A stretch of DNA of 49,550 nucleotides from Mycobacterium barrassiae. GTDB lineage: Bacteria > Actinomycetota > Actinomycetes > Mycobacteriales > Mycobacteriaceae. The translations under genes were made by a program, and so were the position numbers. Location of the stretch: positions 1 to 49,550 of the forward strand of contig NZ_JACKUK010000043.1 of NCBI RefSeq assembly GCF_025822765.1. The letters are read 5' to 3'. How positions within the stretch are numbered: position 1 is the first letter of the stretch; the number at the start of each line of letters is the position of its first letter. Shown piece by piece: positions 7,704 to 17,849 of this stretch. The notes under the pieces were generated by a model that saw only the letters and a list, made by a program, of their open reading frames with translations, had not been told where the DNA came from and made no database searches.

Positions 7704-8381
7704 ATGAGCGGATTGCGCGGTCTGACCCGCCGCGGCTCGGGTCGTGTGTTCCGGGACCGCCGGGAAGCCGGCGACATCCTGGCGCAGGAGTTGGCGTCCT
7801 ATCGCGGCAGGGAGGATCTGTTGGTGCTGGGACTGGCGCGGGGCGGTGTCCCGGTCGGCTGGCAGGTCGCGCACGCGCTGCGCGCACCCCTTGACGTGTT
7901 CCTCGTCCGCAAGCTCGGCGTCCCGCAATGGCAGGAGCTCGCGATGGGCGCGTTGGCCTCCGGCGGCGGCGTGGTGATCAACGACAGCCTGGTGCGCAGC
8001 CTCGGCATCAGCGACGACCAGATGCAGGAGGCGATCGAGCGCGAAACCGAAGAACTACACCGACGGGAAAGCGCGTATCGAGGCGGTCGACCGCCGGTCG
8101 ACGTGACCGGTAAGACGGTGATCCTGGTCGACGACGGGATCGCCACCGGCGCCAGCATGCTCGCCGCGGTACGCGCGGTGAAGGCGAACGCACCGTCTCG
8201 GGTGGTGGTCGCGGTGCCCGTCGGACCGCCGTCGACATGTCGCGAGCTCGCCACCGAAGCCGACGAAGTGGTCTGCGCGATGATGCCGCCGGGATTCGAA
8301 GCCGTCGGCCAGGTGTTCGAGGATTTCCACCAGGTCAGCGACAACGAGGTGCGCGAATTGCTCGCGACGCCAACGGTTTAG
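7704..8381 (+). CDS. Phosphoribosyltransferase family protein (Rv2143 position)
   Basis: The product has 225 residues. The PRPP-binding loop [13 protein letters not shown] is at 139-151, with the upstream [11 protein letters not shown] motif at 42-52; this is a type I phosphoribosyltransferase of the mycobacterial subgroup whose substrate is not established. A purine-rich CGGAGA precedes the ATG. By gene order it matches Rv2143, which converges on Rv2144c. Its last 30 bp belong to the left copy of a 47-bp direct repeat; the frame is intact and ends with TAG at 8379-8381. The Rv2144c-like gene that should follow immediately is instead 4.3 kb away. Confidence 0.82.
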
Positions 8382-8398
8382 CGATTGGTGTCGTCGCT
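8352..8398 (+). repeat. 47-bp direct repeat, left copy
   Basis: This is identical, base for base, to 12659-12705. It spans the last codons of the phosphoribosyltransferase gene, its stop, and the complement of the last six codons and stop of the Rv2144c-like gene (encoding a ..SDDTNR end). Outside the repeat on the right the sequence departs at once (8399). Confidence 0.95.
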
Positions 8399-8466
8399 TT
8401 GGCGCTTATTCTTAAACGACAAGTAGCGCGAATGCAGTACCGGCGCAACAACATCATTCATGTCAA

Positions 8467-9171
8467 TCATTCGACGCCATAAACCTTCGTTCGGTAGCCG
8501 GCGTATGCGCGTCCTCCGAGGAGCGTCACCACCGTTCGTAGAGTCACGGGCAGAGACGCAAGGAACCGGCGCTGTTCGTCGGGAGAGGCATCGCGAAGCA
8601 GGGCGCCGGCGTATGCGAGTGAAAACCACAGATTTCGGGGCTTGACGTACGCGGCGCCACGGTCGATGAACGCCTGCCATTCCCTCTGCGTGATGTATCG
8701 CGCGATAAGTGGTACCAGGTCGCGTTCCTCGTGGTCGAAGTGTTCTCCGGCGTGCATCGCCAGTTTGTCGATGGCCGCGCCGAGTTCCGCCGCCTGCCGC
8801 GGATCAGCGCTGCGGGCCCACACAAGCCGGACCGACTCGACGGCGTCGATTGCCGCGGCGATGACCGCGTGCTCGTCACGTGGCTCCCGCAACGAACCAC
8901 CCGCGGACGGGATTTGTGCCTCCAGCCGCGGCCACAGCAGTTCGTCCTCGGCGTGGTGATGATGGCGCAGCACCGAAATCAGGTTTCCGAGGTAATTGCC
9001 GACGAATGTCGATCGGCGGGTGTCGCGCGGCGGAAGAGTAAGGATCAGCGCGCCAAGATCGCCGAACTCACGGCGGAACGTGCGATGGATCATCGCCATC
9101 TGGAACGGATCGCTTCGGATCGGGGCCTTTATCGCCCAATCTCGGTCGGTATCAGCTTCATCTACGGCCAC
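8467..9171 (-). CDS. Hemerythrin-like HHE cation-binding protein
   Basis: The product has 234 residues. A four-helix HHE pattern is visible: MIHRTFRREFGDL (His29), then LRHHHHAEDELLW (His70-73, Glu75), DEH (His101) and MHAGEHFDHEERDLVP (His140, His144, His147, Glu148). These residues can form a diiron site binding O2, NO or peroxide, as proposed for mycobacterial hemerythrin-like proteins. About 80 C-terminal residues follow, with no clear motif. The GTG at 9171 is chosen because a strong GAGGAGG sits 6 nt upstream; an in-frame start 20 codons further up lacks this. It is divergent from the regulator and cytoplasmic. Confidence 0.8.
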   Translation of the reverse strand: MAVDEADTDRDWAIKAPIRSDPFQMAMIHRTFRREFGDLGALILTLPPRDTRRSTFVGNYLGNLISVLRHHHHAEDELLWPRLEAQIPSAGGSLREPRDEHAVIAAAIDAVESVRLVWARSADPRQAAELGAAIDKLAMHAGEHFDHEERDLVPLIARYITQREWQAFIDRGAAYVKPRNLWFSLAYAGALLRDASPDEQRRFLASLPVTLRTVVTLLGGRAYAGYRTKVYGVE

Positions 9172-9312
9172 GGTGGTCCTCCTCGATCGAGTGGTCGAGT
9201 TAACCGTGGCCCCCGTCGAACGCCGGATCATCGGGGATTGCCCGTAAATGCCCCGGCCGACTACGGGATTTCCCTGATGTTCGCGGCGTAGCGCGCCGAG
9301 AAGGTGGCTAGC
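9172..9312. promoter_or_regulatory. Divergent intergenic region of the island (promoters expected)
   Basis: These 141 bp separate the hemerythrin-like gene from the regulator gene and must hold both promoters. A GAGGAGG Shine-Dalgarno for the minus-strand gene lies at 9178-9184, and a GAGAAGG for the plus-strand gene at 9298-9304. I see no convincing -35/-10 pair or long palindrome. Confidence 0.4.
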
Positions 9313-12300
9313 ATGACCGAACGTGATTCCCGCGCGGAGACACCGGCGGTGAACTGGGGTGAGTTGGGCGTGAGCGCGCTACCGACGGGGACGGTGACGC
9401 TGCTGCTCGCTGATGTCGAGGACTCAACACGGCTGTGGGAGACGCAACCGGAGGAGATGACCGACGCCGTCGCACGCTTGGACCGTGCGCTGGCAGACTT
9501 GCTCGATATCCACGCCGGCGTGCGGCCAGTCGAGCAAGGAGAGGGCGACAGCTTCGTGCTCGCCTTCACCCGCGCGACCGAGGCCACTGCGTGCGCCTTG
9601 GAGCTTCAGCGGGCGCCCGTTGATCCGATTCGATTGCGCATCGGTCTGCACACCGGCGAGGTGCAACTGCGCGACGAGGGCAATTACGTCGGCCCGACCA
9701 TCAACCGGGCGGCACGACTGCGCGATCTCGCCCACGGTGGTCAGACGGTGCTGTCCGGGACCACTGAGGACCTGATCGCCGACGCGCTGCCGGCCGACGC
9801 ATGGCTGACCGACCTCGGCACGCACGAACTGCGTGGTGTCATCCGCCCCGAACGCGTCGTGCAGCTGTGCCACCCCGGCATCCGCAACGACTTCCCACCG
9901 CTCCGGACCTCGAAATCAGGTGCCGCCGAACACCTACCAGCGCAGCTCACCAGTTTCATCGGCCGCGGCGAACAGATCCACGACGTGCGACGGGCTCTCG
10001 CCGCCAATCGGCTGGTCACGCTGACCGGCGCCGGTGGCGCCGGCAAGACCCGACTCGCCATACAGGTCGCAGGTCAGATGACTGCCCACTTCGGTGACGG
10101 AGTGCGCTATGTCGACCTCGCTCCGATCACCCAACCCGATTTGGTGCCAGCTGCGATGGCCGCCGCCTTGGGTCTGGCGGATCAGCCGAGCCGCTCGACG
10201 ACGGACATGATCATCCGGTTCGTCCGAGAGCGCAGGATGTTGGTGCTGCTGGACAACTGCGAGCACGTGCTGGACGCGTGCGCTGCGCTGGTCGACGCCG
10301 TTCTGACTAGCTGCCCGGGGCTGACACTGTTGGCGACCAGTCGCGAGCCCATAGGTGCGGCCAGTGAGGTGACCTGGCAAGTGCCGTCACTCTCGTTGGA
10401 CGACGAGGCCATCGAGCTGTTCGTCGACCGGGCGCGCCGGGTGCGCGCCGGTTTTACCGTGACTGACGACGGTGCCGTGAAGGAGATCTGCCGTCGCCTC
10501 GACGGCATGCCGCTGGCAATCGAACTCGCCGCGGCCAGGGTGCGCGCGTTGACACTGCTCGAGATCCTCGAGAGCTTGCACGACCGCTTCCGCCTGTTGA
10601 CCGGCGGTTCCCGTACCGCGGTGCGGAGGCAACAGACGCTGCAGGCCTCCGTGGACTGGTCGCACGCGCTGCTGACCGAACCCGAGCGAGTGTTGTTCCG
10701 CCGGCTCGCGGTCTTTTTGGGCGGGTTCGGTCTCAAGGCCGCTCAGGCCGTCGCCTGCAGCACCGAGACGGAGCGCTACCAGGTCCTGGATCAGTTGGCG
10801 CTTCTGGTGGATAAATCGCTGGTCGTCGCCGATGGCGTCGGTGGCCGAACGCGCTATCACCTGCTCGAAACGGTGCGCCAGTACGCCCTACAGAAGCTCG
10901 GTGAATCCGGCGAAGCCGATGCTGTGCGGACACGTCACCGCGACTACTACACCACGATGGCCGACGATCTCGATGCGCCGTCGGCCGCGGGCCGCCAGCA
11001 GAGTGTCGAAAATATGGAGACCGAGATCGACAACCTACGTGCGGCATTCGCCTGGAGCCGCGAGAACTCGGACGTCGACCTCGCGCTACAACTTGCCTCG
11101 TCGCTCCAGCCGCTGTGGCTCACGAGAGGTCGTCTGCGCGAAGGGCTCACCTGGGTCGATGGCGGTCTGAGCGACCTCGCCGCGAGCGGATGCGAAGTGG
11201 CACCGGCGGTGCGTGCCCGGGCTCTCGCCGACGTGGCCCTGTTCGACGGCTGGCTAGGAGTGCCCGCGCGCAGGGAACAGGCGGCAGAAGCGCTAGCGAT
11301 CGCTCGCCGACTCGACGACCCGCCTCTGGTGGTTCGCGCCCTCACCGCCTGCTGCGGAACCGCGGCCTTCGACCCCGAACAAGCGGCGGCGTACTTCGCC
11401 GAGGCCATCGACCTTGCGCGCAGCTTGGGAGACCGATGGCGGCTGAGCCAGCTCTTGGGATTTCACGCATACGCCGCAATGATGGCCGGCGACGCGACCG
11501 CAGCGCTCGCCGCAGGTGAGGAGGGCCGCGCACTCGCCGACGCGATCGGCGATCGGTTCGCTTCAGGTCTATGCCGAGTGTGGGGGCTGGCCGCAGCACG
11601 GGCCGTGCTCGGGGACCTTCGAGGCGGCGACAAGCAGTTGGCGGAAGTGGTTGCGGATGCGGGAGCGGCTGGCGACCTGTTGTGCAGGTTCAACGGTCTC
11701 ACCACGCACAGCTTCGTCCTGGGCTGGCAGGGCAAGACCGCCGAGGCGCGAGCCGCCGCCGAAGAGGCCATCAGCTCCGCTGCGGAGCTCGGCGTGCTCG
11801 TCGAGGGGCAGGGCTACCTGACCTTGTCGAACGCGGAGCTCGCGGCGGGCGACGTCGAGGCTGCCATGAACGCTCTCGTCCAGGGCTGGAAGCGCATTGG
11901 AGACATCGAGTTTTCGGCGATGAACTTGCGTTGGAGAGCGGAAACCGAACTCGCAGCGGGAGATTTGGACATGGCCGCCGGGTGGGCGGACCGGGCTGTG
12001 TCATGCACGACGGGGTTCTTTCACATGTTGTCGCTGACCACTCGTGCTCGAGTGGCGTTGGCACGAACCGACATCGACGCAGCTGAACGCGACGCCTACG
12101 ACGCGCTCGCCTGTGCGACCGAGGTCAGCGCCCTGGTCGGGCTGCCCGACATCCTCGACTGCCTCACCTACCTGGCCGCGAATGCTGGCGCATATCCGCT
12201 GGCGGCCCGCCTCGGTGGCGCGGCGGAAGCAATCCGGGTCCGTACCGGTGAGGTTCGATACAGGATCCACCAAGACGAGGACGAGGCGTCGGTGACTGCG

Positions 12301-12618
12301 CTGCGAAATGCGATGGGCGAAACCGACTTCGACGTCAACTGGGCTGAAGGCGCTTCGTTGTCCACCGATGAGGCGATCGCGTATGCCCAGCGCGGCCGCG
12401 GGGAACGCAAACGCCCGTCGACCGGCTGGGCCTCGCTCACCCCCACTGAACGCGACGTGGTGCGGCTTGTAAGCGAAGGCCTGAGCAACAAGGACGTCGC
12501 CATGAGGCTCTTCGTTTCACCACGAACCGTCGAAACTCACCTCACACACGTCTACACCAAGCTCGGCCTCTCCTCACGCGTCCAACTCGCTCAGGAAGCC
12601 ACCCGCCGGGGGGCGTGA
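9313..12618 (+). CDS. Large regulator: class III nucleotide cyclase domain, NB-ARC-like ATPase, TPR-like region and LuxR HTH
   Basis: The product has 1101 residues. At 25-185 is a class III cyclase homology domain: metal Asp34 in LLADVEDSTRLW, Asp79 in GEGDSF, Asn131/Arg135 in INRAARL. At 210-500 is a STAND-type ATPase with P-loop GAGGAGKT (239-246), LVLLDNCEHVLDA as Walker B region, and GMPLAIELAAARV. A long helical TPR-like region follows. The last 60 residues are a LuxR-type helix-turn-helix (LTPTERDVVRLVSEGLSNKD). This architecture matches M. tuberculosis Rv0386, Rv1358, Rv0890c and Rv2488c. The usual Lys and Asp that select adenine are Gln and Asn here. A GTG three codons upstream is an alternative start, but the spacing to GAGAAGG favours the ATG at 9313. 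It probably regulates the divergent hemerythrin-like gene, among other targets. Confidence 0.85.
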   Translation: MTERDSRAETPAVNWGELGVSALPTGTVTLLLADVEDSTRLWETQPEEMTDAVARLDRALADLLDIHAGVRPVEQGEGDSFVLAFTRATEATACALELQRAPVDPIRLRIGLHTGEVQLRDEGNYVGPTINRAARLRDLAHGGQTVLSGTTEDLIADALPADAWLTDLGTHELRGVIRPERVVQLCHPGIRNDFPPLRTSKSGAAEHLPAQLTSFIGRGEQIHDVRRALAANRLVTLTGAGGAGKTRLAIQVAGQMTAHFGDGVRYVDLAPITQPDLVPAAMAAALGLADQPSRSTTDMIIRFVRERRMLVLLDNCEHVLDACAALVDAVLTSCPGLTLLATSREPIGAASEVTWQVPSLSLDDEAIELFVDRARRVRAGFTVTDDGAVKEICRRLDGMPLAIELAAARVRALTLLEILESLHDRFRLLTGGSRTAVRRQQTLQASVDWSHALLTEPERVLFRRLAVFLGGFGLKAAQAVACSTETERYQVLDQLALLVDKSLVVADGVGGRTRYHLLETVRQYALQKLGESGEADAVRTRHRDYYTTMADDLDAPSAAGRQQSVENMETEIDNLRAAFAWSRENSDVDLALQLASSLQPLWLTRGRLREGLTWVDGGLSDLAASGCEVAPAVRARALADVALFDGWLGVPARREQAAEALAIARRLDDPPLVVRALTACCGTAAFDPEQAAAYFAEAIDLARSLGDRWRLSQLLGFHAYAAMMAGDATAALAAGEEGRALADAIGDRFASGLCRVWGLAAARAVLGDLRGGDKQLAEVVADAGAAGDLLCRFNGLTTHSFVLGWQGKTAEARAAAEEAISSAAELGVLVEGQGYLTLSNAELAAGDVEAAMNALVQGWKRIGDIEFSAMNLRWRAETELAAGDLDMAAGWADRAVSCTTGFFHMLSLTTRARVALARTDIDAAERDAYDALACATEVSALVGLPDILDCLTYLAANAGAYPLAARLGGAAEAIRVRTGEVRYRIHQDEDEASVTALRNAMGETDFDVNWAEGASLSTDEAIAYAQRGRGERKRPSTGWASLTPTERDVVRLVSEGLSNKDVAMRLFVSPRTVETHLTHVYTKLGLSSRVQLAQEATRRGA

Positions 12619-12658
12619 ACCGATCGCGGCCGCGTCTAACTGCTATCGCGACGAAGTT

Positions 12659-12705
12659 CGCGAATTGCTCGCGACGCCAACGGTTTAGCGATTGGTGTCG
12701 TCGCT
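12659..12705 (+). repeat. 47-bp direct repeat, right copy
   Basis: This is identical to 8352-8398. It contains the true 3' end of the Rv2144c-like gene (stop complement at 12685-12687). Just upstream, 12648-12658 still resembles the phosphoribosyltransferase coding sequence, with changes at two third-codon positions. Confidence 0.95.
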
Positions 12706-13011
12706 GGAGATGTCGTCGGCCTGCTGGACGACCGTCGTCTCGGCCTCGTAATCGGGCTCCGACTCGGCCACCGGCTCCTCGGGGTATTCCTCGTCGAACT
12801 CCGCGACCTGGTCGCCCTCGGGGTCTGCCGGACCTTCACGCTCTTCCGGTTCTTTCCTCGACCGGTCGCGTATCGCATCGACGATCAGCAGCACCACGCC
12901 GATGACGCTCGCCGCGATACATACCCACGCGATCAACTCATTGCTGGTGACGACAGCGGTCACCAACGCGGCAAGACCGATGACGGCGAGCACAAGAGCA
13001 ACGATCAACAT
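12685..13011 (-). CDS. Small membrane protein with acidic tail (Rv2144c-like)
   Basis: The product has 108 residues. Two hydrophobic segments (about 2-22 and 26-46) are followed by a basic stop (DRSRK) and a strongly acidic, low-complexity tail of about 55 residues. It lies next to wag31, as Rv2144c does in M. tuberculosis. Function is unknown; its constant place beside the polar-growth and division genes suggests an envelope role. Its last codons lie inside the 47-bp repeat. Confidence 0.75.
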   Translation of the reverse strand: MLIVALVLAVIGLAALVTAVVTSNELIAWVCIAASVIGVVLLIVDAIRDRSRKEPEEREGPADPEGDQVAEFDEEYPEEPVAESEPDYEAETTVVQQADDISSDDTNR

Positions 13012-13058: not shown

Positions 13059-13868
13059 CTAGTTGTTGCCGCGGTTGAACTGGTTGAAACCGCCGGCATC
13101 GCTGTTGGCGCCGGAATCCACCGGGGCGGCTGAGCCGCGCTGGCCCAGTTCCTCGAGCTGCGATTCCAGGTAGGTCTTCAGGCGCGTCCGGTACTCCCGC
13201 TCGAAGGTGCGCAGCTGTTCGAGGCGACCTTCCAGCACCGTGCGCTGCTGGTTGATGGTGCCCATGATCTCGGAATGCTTGCGCTCGGCATCGGCCTGCA
13301 GGGCGTCGGCCTTCTCCTGCGCCTGCCGCAGCTGGGTTTCCGAGCGGGTCTGCGCGTCGGCCAGCATGGCGTCGGCGCGCTGACGTGCCTCGGCGACCGT
13401 GGTCTCCGCGGTCTGCTTGGCCTCGCTGACCAGGGTATCGGCCTGGGCGCGGGCGTCGGCGAGCATCTTGTCGGACTCGGCCTTGGCGGTTTCGGTCAGT
13501 CGGTCGGCGGTGTCCTGAGCCAGGGCCAGCACGCGTGCCGCCTTGATCGCCTGATCTTCGTTGGCCGACGGGCTCGCGGGCGCCTCATAGGCAGGCTGCG
13601 GGGTCGGCTCGGGGGTGGGCGCGGGTGTCGGGGCGGCCTCGTATTGCGGTGCGGCCTGCGCCGTCTGGCCACCGCCACCTGCAGCGGCGAGCTCCTGGTC
13701 CAGTTCGGCGACGCGCTGACGGAGGTCGGCGTTCTCCTCGATGAGGCGGGTCAGCTCGTTCTCAACCAGATCGAGGAAGGCGTCGACCTCGTCCTCGTTG
13801 TAGCCGCGCTTGCCAATGGGTGGCTTGCTGAACGCAACGTTGTGAACGTCGGCTGGTGTGAGCGGCAT
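13059..13868 (-). CDS. wag31: DivIVA-family polar growth protein Wag31
   Basis: The product has 269 residues. The N-terminal DivIVA domain ([20 protein letters not shown]) is the membrane-curvature-binding crossed-loop region. A Pro/Ala/Thr-rich spacer (about 61-105) follows, then a long coiled coil (about 108-245) with repeated AxxxAxxxx/QAQEKADAL-type heptads, and a short QFNRG-type tail. Wag31 marks the cell poles and organises peptidoglycan synthesis there. The position equivalent to the M. tuberculosis Thr73 phosphosite is Ala73. It is the last division gene before the Rv2144c-like gene. Confidence 0.97.
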
Positions 13869-16715: not shown

Positions 16716-17849
16716 TCAGTGGCGCATGAAAGGCGGCACATCGACGTCGTCGTCGTCGTCCCCGCCGATGCTCACCGTCGCGCCATTGGTGTGCACGGGC
16801 ACACTGACGGCGTCGGCCGGCTCGAACAGCTGTGAGGTCACCTTGCCCGCCGATCCCGCGGCGATCGTCTGACCCGAGCTGACCACCGGCTTGCGCCCCG
16901 GCCCGGCGGAGTCGAATCCCGCGGCGATCACGGTGACGCGAACCTCGTCGCCCAGCGAGTCGTCGATGACGGTGCCGAAGATGATGTTGGCTTCGGCGTG
17001 GGCTGCCTCCTGGACCAGCGAGGCTGCCTCGTTGATCTCGAACAGCCCGAGGTCGCTGCCGCCGGCCACCGACAGCAGCACGCCCTGTGCGCCCTCCATC
17101 GAGGCCTCGAGCAGCGGCGAGTTGATCGCGATCTCGGCGGCCTTGAGTGCACGGCCGTCGCCACGCGCCGACCCGATGCCCATCAATGCGGTGCCCGCCC
17201 CGCTCATCACGCCCTTGACGTCGGCGAAGTCGACGTTGATCAGACCAGGCGTGGTGATCAGGTCGGTGATGCCCTGCACGCCGTTCAGCAGTACCTCGTC
17301 GGCGCTGCGGAAGGCATCCATCAACGACACCGCGGCGTCACCCATCTGCAGCAGCCGGTCGTTGGGGATGACGATCAGGGTGTCGCAGCTCTCGCGCAGC
17401 GCGACGATGCCGGCCTCGGCCTGGTTGCTTCGGCGCTTGCCCTCGAAGGAGAACGGCCGCGTGACCACGCCGACCGTCAGCGCACCGAGCTTGCGCGCGA
17501 TCGTCGCGACCACGGGCGCACCACCGGTGCCGGTGCCGCCGCCCTCGCCTGCGGTGACGAACACCATGTCGGCGCCGCGCAGCAGCTCTTCGATGTCGTC
17601 CTTGGCGTCCTCGGCGGCTTTACGCCCGACCTCCGGGTCGGCGCCGGCGCCGAGGCCACGCGTGGAGTCGCGGCCGACGTCGAGCTTGACGTCGGCATCG
17701 CTCATCAACAGCGCCTGCGCGTCGGTGTTGATGGCGATGAACTCGACGCCTTTCAGGCCCTGCTCGATCATCCGGTTGACGGCGTTGACGCCGCCGCCTC
17801 CGATGCCGACGACCTTGATCACGGCGAGGTAGTTATGCGGGGGGGTCAT
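16716..17849 (-). CDS. ftsZ: Cell division protein FtsZ
   Basis: The product has 377 residues and starts [18 protein letters not shown] as in M. tuberculosis. The GTP-binding tubulin signature GEGGGTGTG, the nucleotide region [10 protein letters not shown] and the catalytic T7 loop NVDFADVK are intact. After the globular core a variable linker leads to the C-terminal binding peptide [10 protein letters not shown], which contacts SepF and FtsW. The ATG at 17849 is chosen over a GTG 12 codons upstream because GGAGGAAAGG lies between them and can serve as its ribosome site. It polymerises into the Z-ring. Confidence 0.98.

Follow-up and report, generated by a model that had tools for sequence, protein, structure and literature searches.

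CIMEs (cis-mobilizable elements) are islands flanked by att sites that carry no integration genes (PMC5704250). Among the ssrA islands of Dehalococcoides, 15 are without an integration module and are bounded by a direct repeat of the 3′ end of the gene (PMC3146451). IS1549 (M. smegmatis) and IS1634 (M. mycoides) have been reported to generate direct repeats of 8 to 514 bp (PMC2266710). In the openly licensed literature we found no account of a mycobacterial genomic island with attL at a phosphoribosyltransferase integration site, and none of a mycobacterial hemerythrin island with direct repeats and without an integrase. The locus described below is an insertion of a kind already known in outline. 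An earlier analysis from the letters of the DNA alone (the sequence-only reading) had suggested that it may be an undescribed recombinase-free island, which was too strong a claim since CIMEs and ssrA islands have already been described (PMC5704250, PMC3146451).

The window, by which we mean the whole stretch of 49,550 nucleotides that was analyzed, is the entire contig C43 of a Mycobacterium barrassiae genome of 5.9 Mb in 49 contigs. Direct comparison of the copies showed that positions 8352-8398 and 12659-12705 are the same over 47 bp with zero mismatches, and the coordinates, length and identity reported for this pair by the sequence-only reading were exact. When the flanks are placed on the empty site of the nearest relative found, G063, they overlap by 57 bp, so the duplicated piece is 57 bp long and consists of the 47 perfect bases and 10 bp at the 5′ edge. 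The two 57-bp copies differ at three positions, all within these first 10 bp. The repeat covers the 3′ ends of two genes that converge and overlap there, a phosphoribosyltransferase-domain (PRT) gene, which we take to be Rv2143-like, and a gene for a small membrane protein, presumably Rv2144c-like. The PRT stop codon (8379-8381) is inside the left copy and the 3′ end of the second gene (12685-13011, minus strand) is inside the right copy. Both genes are intact, and the proposed 4.3-kb insertion at their ends is supported. The insert itself (8399-12648, about 4.25 kb) holds two genes, one for a hemerythrin-domain protein and a divergent one for a cyclase/NB-ARC/LuxR protein, both with intact frames. 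The features are listed in Table 1. The product of the Rv2144c-like gene matched no Pfam family, and its match to the SCO2097 family was weak and below the cut-off.

Table 1. Position and supporting evidence of the features at the insertion site.
Feature	Position	Strand	Evidence or remark
Phosphoribosyltransferase-domain gene (PRT), intact	7704..8381	+	Pfam PF00156 2.3e-16
Left copy of duplicated junction	8342..8398	.	perfect part 8352-8398
Left end of insert, non-coding, AT-rich (44% G+C over 8399-8470, against 67% for the window)	8399..8466	.	comparison with G063
Hemerythrin HHE-domain gene, 254 aa	8467..9231	-	PF01814 3.8e-13
Stretch upstream of cyclase gene, common to many relatives	9262..9303	+	BLAST matches listed
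Cyclase/NB-ARC/LuxR gene, 1104 aa, intact frame	9304..12618	+	PF00211 1.1e-7, PF00931 1.5e-7, PF00196 1.3e-18
Right end of insert, non-coding	12619..12648	.	comparison with G063
Right copy of duplicated junction	12649..12705	.	perfect part 12659-12705
Small membrane protein gene, Rv2144c-like, intact	12685..13011	-	3′ end in right repeat
wag31/DivIVA gene, anchor of conserved order	13059..13868	-	NF050102, 389.6 bits against a cut-off of 260

With up to three mismatches allowed, the 47-bp repeat is present at two places only in the 5.9-Mb genome, and its 25-bp core was found at the same two places; no sibling att sites were found elsewhere in this genome with either query. As a control, perfect direct repeats of at least 25 bp spaced 0.3-30 kb apart were sought in the window and in two 400-kb segments taken from this genome. 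The window gave only the 8352/12659 pair, and the 800 kb of control sequence gave seven pairs of which the longest measured 35 bp. The repeat that flanks the insert is exceptional in length, and a chance repeat was rejected on the basis of the two genomic copies and the 35-bp maximum of the controls. The 35-bp pair (C23:55399/56740) was also considered as a second case and rejected, being a dispersed palindrome with a gene between its copies. At this locus (L218:15399-15433 and 16740-16774) two copies of a REP-like palindrome of roughly 50-60 bp enclose a gene whose sequence reads as acyl-CoA-dehydrogenase-like.

The PRT of G063 shares 91% amino acid identity with that of the window, and its junction is an empty site at which the PRT and Rv2144c-like genes directly abut and the flanks are collinear. 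The DNA of G063 is 90.8% identical to the window up to position 8398 and 92.1% identical from 12649 onward. Of 145 other mycobacterial genomes that were surveyed, 144 have the two genes side by side, with a distance of 291-538 bp from the PRT end to the Rv2144c-like start; in G014 this distance is 1560 bp. The survey consisted of G022 and 144 of 219 other genomes with a PRT match at E ≤ 1e-88. Duplicate loci were excluded from the count, and so were six named loci (including M. elephantis, M. neglectum and M. hubeiense) that are probable repeats and in all of which both genes are adjacent. Neither the two insert genes nor integration genes were found at the junction in the 145 genomes, 144 of which have no room for an integrase gene. 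Comparison of the junction across mycobacteria, a check put forward with the sequence-only reading, gave an empty site in G063 and adjacent genes in all but one of the 145 genomes surveyed; it bears out the view that the empty junction is the ancestral order and does not support the alternative of an ancestral island fixed in close relatives. The insertion is real and lineage-specific. Another proposed check was to look in other genomes for the repeat at further sites. When up to three mismatches were allowed, a 29-bp version of the site was present in 12 of 386 genomes. It is found twice here and singly in 11 others, always at the PRT 3′ end. Since it is single in all 11, no other genome sampled shows two copies, and a second copy was lacking in all 385 other genomes.

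G014 (contig C16, L074:4176-5312) has a different insert of about 1.1-1.2 kb between the PRT and Rv2144c-like genes. It contains genes for an M24 metallopeptidase and for a helix-turn-helix protein of 88 aa, and no strong direct repeat was found around it, the best spanning pair being 18 nt at 78%. Palindromic units (GCGGCTGAGCCGC followed by GAATTCA or similar) occur, one to three per locus, in L078 (G365), L083 (G148), L087 (G237), L091 (G169) and L093 (G293). They sit between a shortened PRT end and a CCAACGGTTTAGCG-like motif, that is, within the stretch that is duplicated in the window.

The 10 bp at the edge of the repeat distinguish its two copies. The right copy agrees with G063 at 9/10 of these positions and the left copy at 7/10; over the full 57 bp the agreement is 55/57 and 53/57, respectively. 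Inside the 47 bp there is one position where both window copies differ from G063. Among the 49,478 10-mers of the window only 2 match the ten bases of G063 at 9/10 or better and 390 match those of the left copy at 7/10 or better, which indicates that the edge is homologous and not a chance extension. In simulations that placed three substitutions at random on an exact 57-bp duplicate, a perfect run of at least 47 bp was kept with a probability of 0.016. The clustering of the three differences at the edge, as seen in 1.6% of the trials, therefore favors an exchange in which the two copies of the site differed slightly. With G063 as the outgroup two of the three differences are assigned to the PRT-coding left copy, and the third is ambiguous. 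The 17 bp of the Rv2144c-like gene that fall within the repeat point the other way. They are fully conserved in G063 (17/17), which provided the top two of the 22 best-matching loci, whereas the other 20 loci reach at most 13/17. Since these 17 bp are identical only in G063, a fresh local duplication is a simpler explanation than an old phage-type site. Measured in windows of 50 and 250 bp, the identity of the flanks to G063 does not change abruptly at either junction except for one dip, the 50-bp window at 12799 (0.66), which lies in the variable tail of the Rv2144c-like gene.

The sequence-only reading had stated that the insert lacks a recombinase, and this was upheld. No recombinase or transposase domain was detected by Pfam in the two insert genes, and ten further frames of 105-186 aa matched no Pfam family. 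PF00589 was not found on contig C43; the genome has 17 phage-integrase-type matches above the cut-off, none of which is on this contig. Terminal inverted repeats of the insert were not found, as 83-84% of random pairs were as alike as its ends under either choice of boundary. Att sites of tyrosine integrases have imperfect inverted arms separated by a short spacer. The core of the duplicated piece has an inverted repeat with 8/10 matching arms and a 9-bp spacer, which was equalled by 14.7% of 1000 random 57-mers of the window.

A phage, plasmid or viral source was rejected, and the site had no useful match in the collections searched. The insert with its flanks hit 55 plasmid records, and the 20 of 55 listed each covered at most 10% of the query, within the cyclase-LuxR gene; the same query gave 1 phage record. 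For the right junction there were 61 phage records at E ≤ 10, and the 20 of 61 listed were all short; two records at ≥99% may be outside these 20. The 57-bp site alone hit 21 phage records (longest match 29 bp at 86%), the left junction gave three weak plasmid records, and the att pattern had no match in viral contigs. With the hemerythrin protein 18 plasmid records below 60% identity were obtained (36.8% for the best among the rows shown), and the viral collection contained no relative.

In several respects the insert resembles a CIME (PMC5704250). It has att-like repeats at both ends (57-bp putative att repeats, 47 bp perfect), it is located at a gene 3′ end and the gene is kept whole. No integration or transfer genes were found, the two genes having other domains and the ten frames no Pfam family. 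It differs in that no parent ICE or IME, tandem partner or integrase for the site was found and in that the att role of the repeats is putative. A CIME arises by decay of an ICE or IME, keeps attL and attR at its ends and can be excised or moved by a related element. As to a putative decay in this case, no integration genes were seen at the junction in 145 genomes and no second site copy in 385 others. The insert looks like a CIME, but an origin from an ICE or IME and the att role of its repeats are putative, so we do not file it as one. With the Dehalococcoides islands it shares the direct repeat of a gene 3′ end and the missing integration module. Those islands have a 20-bp repeat and serine-recombinase siblings at the same site (PMC3146451), whereas the present island is single, has a longer repeat and no sibling that we could find. 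Neither a relative nor a partner integrase nor a second occupied site turned up, a further reason why the earlier suggestion of an undescribed recombinase-free island was too strong.

The explanation that we tentatively prefer, at somewhat less than an even chance, is an acquired lineage-restricted island that brought along a slightly different copy of the junction and recombined through it with the chromosome in one crossover. The entering DNA, probably circular, would have carried a roughly 57-bp copy of the PRT/Rv2144c-like junction from the same species clade. With the crossover inside the 47 identical bases, the sequence beyond each copy would stay native and neither gene would be broken. 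The island itself would lack the enzyme, which may have been lost, may have acted in trans, or may be host RecA using short homology. A source in trans could be among the 17 phage-integrase-type matches of the genome, and the island would then be like a cis-mobilizable element. Campbell-type integration of a circle by RecA via short homology amounts to one crossover between homologous copies; it would give exactly the layout seen here and calls for an explanation of how the circle acquired the junction of the clade. The insertion, the empty site, the duplication and the intact cargo frames are observed; a foreign origin of the cargo, a circular donor, a single crossover, any particular recombinase and any present mobility are inferences. 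The crossover is supported by the empty collinear site in G063 and the adjacency in 144 of 145 genomes, by the homologous but non-identical edges of the copies, such as two alleles of one site would leave when they recombine, by a cargo that is closer to G211, G364, G382 and G120 than to G063, and by the lack of a recombinase or transposase in the insert and of PF00589 on C43. Against it are the 17 clade-specific bp, which there is no reason for a classical phage attP to imitate, the lack of a second site in 385 genomes, of a junction integrase and of a useful att match in the phage, plasmid and viral collections, the ordinary core inverted repeat, and the different kind of insert that G014 has at the same junction. 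The circle joined by one crossover, as suggested in the sequence-only reading, agrees with the non-identical edge; the 17 bp do not fit it well, and target duplication is a strong rival.

This strong rival, a long target duplication at a staggered break, we consider possible although well short of an even chance. A foreign fragment would have been captured at a staggered double-strand break or by template switching, with the target copied on both sides. An overhang of about 47-57 nt would be filled and ligated, for example by end joining, and the left edge would have changed afterwards by substitutions or by exchange with sister strains. The entire repeat including the 17 bp is clade-specific like a fresh target copy, no inverted ends, recombinase or other occupied site were found, and by simple arithmetic three differences in 57 bp fit an event part-way along a branch of 8-9% total divergence. 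The confinement of these differences to the first 10 bp, with its low simulated probability, and the assignment of two of them to the PRT-coding copy argue against it. In addition, a stagger of 47-57 nt is long, and a limited literature search gave no precedent. Because the edge favors the crossover and the 17 bp favor duplication, both are kept with the crossover slightly ahead. Ordinary homologous recombination, by which a segment of a sister strain with the island replaced the junction and the left breakpoint fell inside the repeat, would agree with the resemblance of the right copy to a sister allele and with the uneven G063 identity just right of the junction. It is nevertheless unlikely, as the flanks show no step apart from the dip at 12799 and a chance breakpoint in 47 bp within long homologous flanks is hardly to be expected. 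An assembly artefact, with two unrelated places or an empty chromosome and a separate 4.3-kb circle joined via the repeat, could arise in a 49-contig draft where a 47-bp repeat may confuse short k-mers; the collinearity of the outer flanks with G063 on both sides and the lack of resemblance of either insert gene to a replication gene make this very improbable. Least credible is transposition with an unusually long target duplication. The long, variable direct repeats around IS1549 and IS1634 (8 to 514 bp; PMC2266710) are a likeness, but the insert has no terminal inverted repeats, as shown by the random pairs, and no transposase was found in the genes and frames searched, although one may have acted in trans.

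If the repeats are active att sites, the insert would be a minimal passenger island. If they result from target duplication, it would be a clean case of DNA capture by a mycobacterial chromosome, with a duplication of 47-57 bp and no evident enzyme. Either way, two genes can be added between two others with neither broken. A broader proposal, which we regard as doubtful, is that two-gene regulatory cassettes move between mycobacteria without a recombinase of their own by carrying a clade-specific copy of a convergent gene junction. Host recombination or the integrase of another element would then allow entry and exit with neither gene broken.

The cargo is probably foreign. The hemerythrin protein has matches at E ≤ 1e-40 in 11 of 395 other genomes of the genus, at no more than 39% identity, and among 277 other genomes of the order only in G211 (37%) and G022 (36%); its gene start was called mechanically and may in fact lie further inside the frame. 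When the entire insert was used as a DNA query, matches at E ≤ 1e-30 were obtained in 189 of 395 other genomes. The top-scoring matches listed had 75% identity (G211, G364 and G382), with up to 79% over part of the query in G120, and the best match of G063 was 71% over 1.6 kb. The best matches listed span the cyclase gene and omit the hemerythrin gene. The cyclase gene product combines cyclase, NB-ARC/AAA and LuxR helix-turn-helix domains in one chain according to the Pfam search. This is the Mclx architecture of M. tuberculosis, found in Rv0386, Rv1358 and Rv2488c (PMC4452763). From the domains one might guess that a gas- or redox-responsive protein is placed beside a cyclase-type regulator.

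Many of the matches listed start at query base 862-864, corresponding to about position 9262 of the window. Among these matches some 42 bp 5′ of the cyclase gene are conserved in many relatives despite a different divergent neighbor, and 9262-9303 is probably a promoter or leader region, a candidate regulatory stretch. The upstream frames of cyclase-gene relatives were scanned at 33 loci, ten of which were read (L063 and L035 are from one genome). In all ten the divergent neighbor is cytochrome P450-like, as was confirmed by family search for L059. Unlike these Mclx relatives, the gene studied here is on an insert and beside a hemerythrin gene. The hemerythrin gene takes the place of the P450-like neighbor, which suggests that the two insert genes may have been united before or during transfer. 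In L054, L059-L064, L066 and L067 a P450-like gene is divergent to the cyclase-LuxR relative, and this pairing may be functional.
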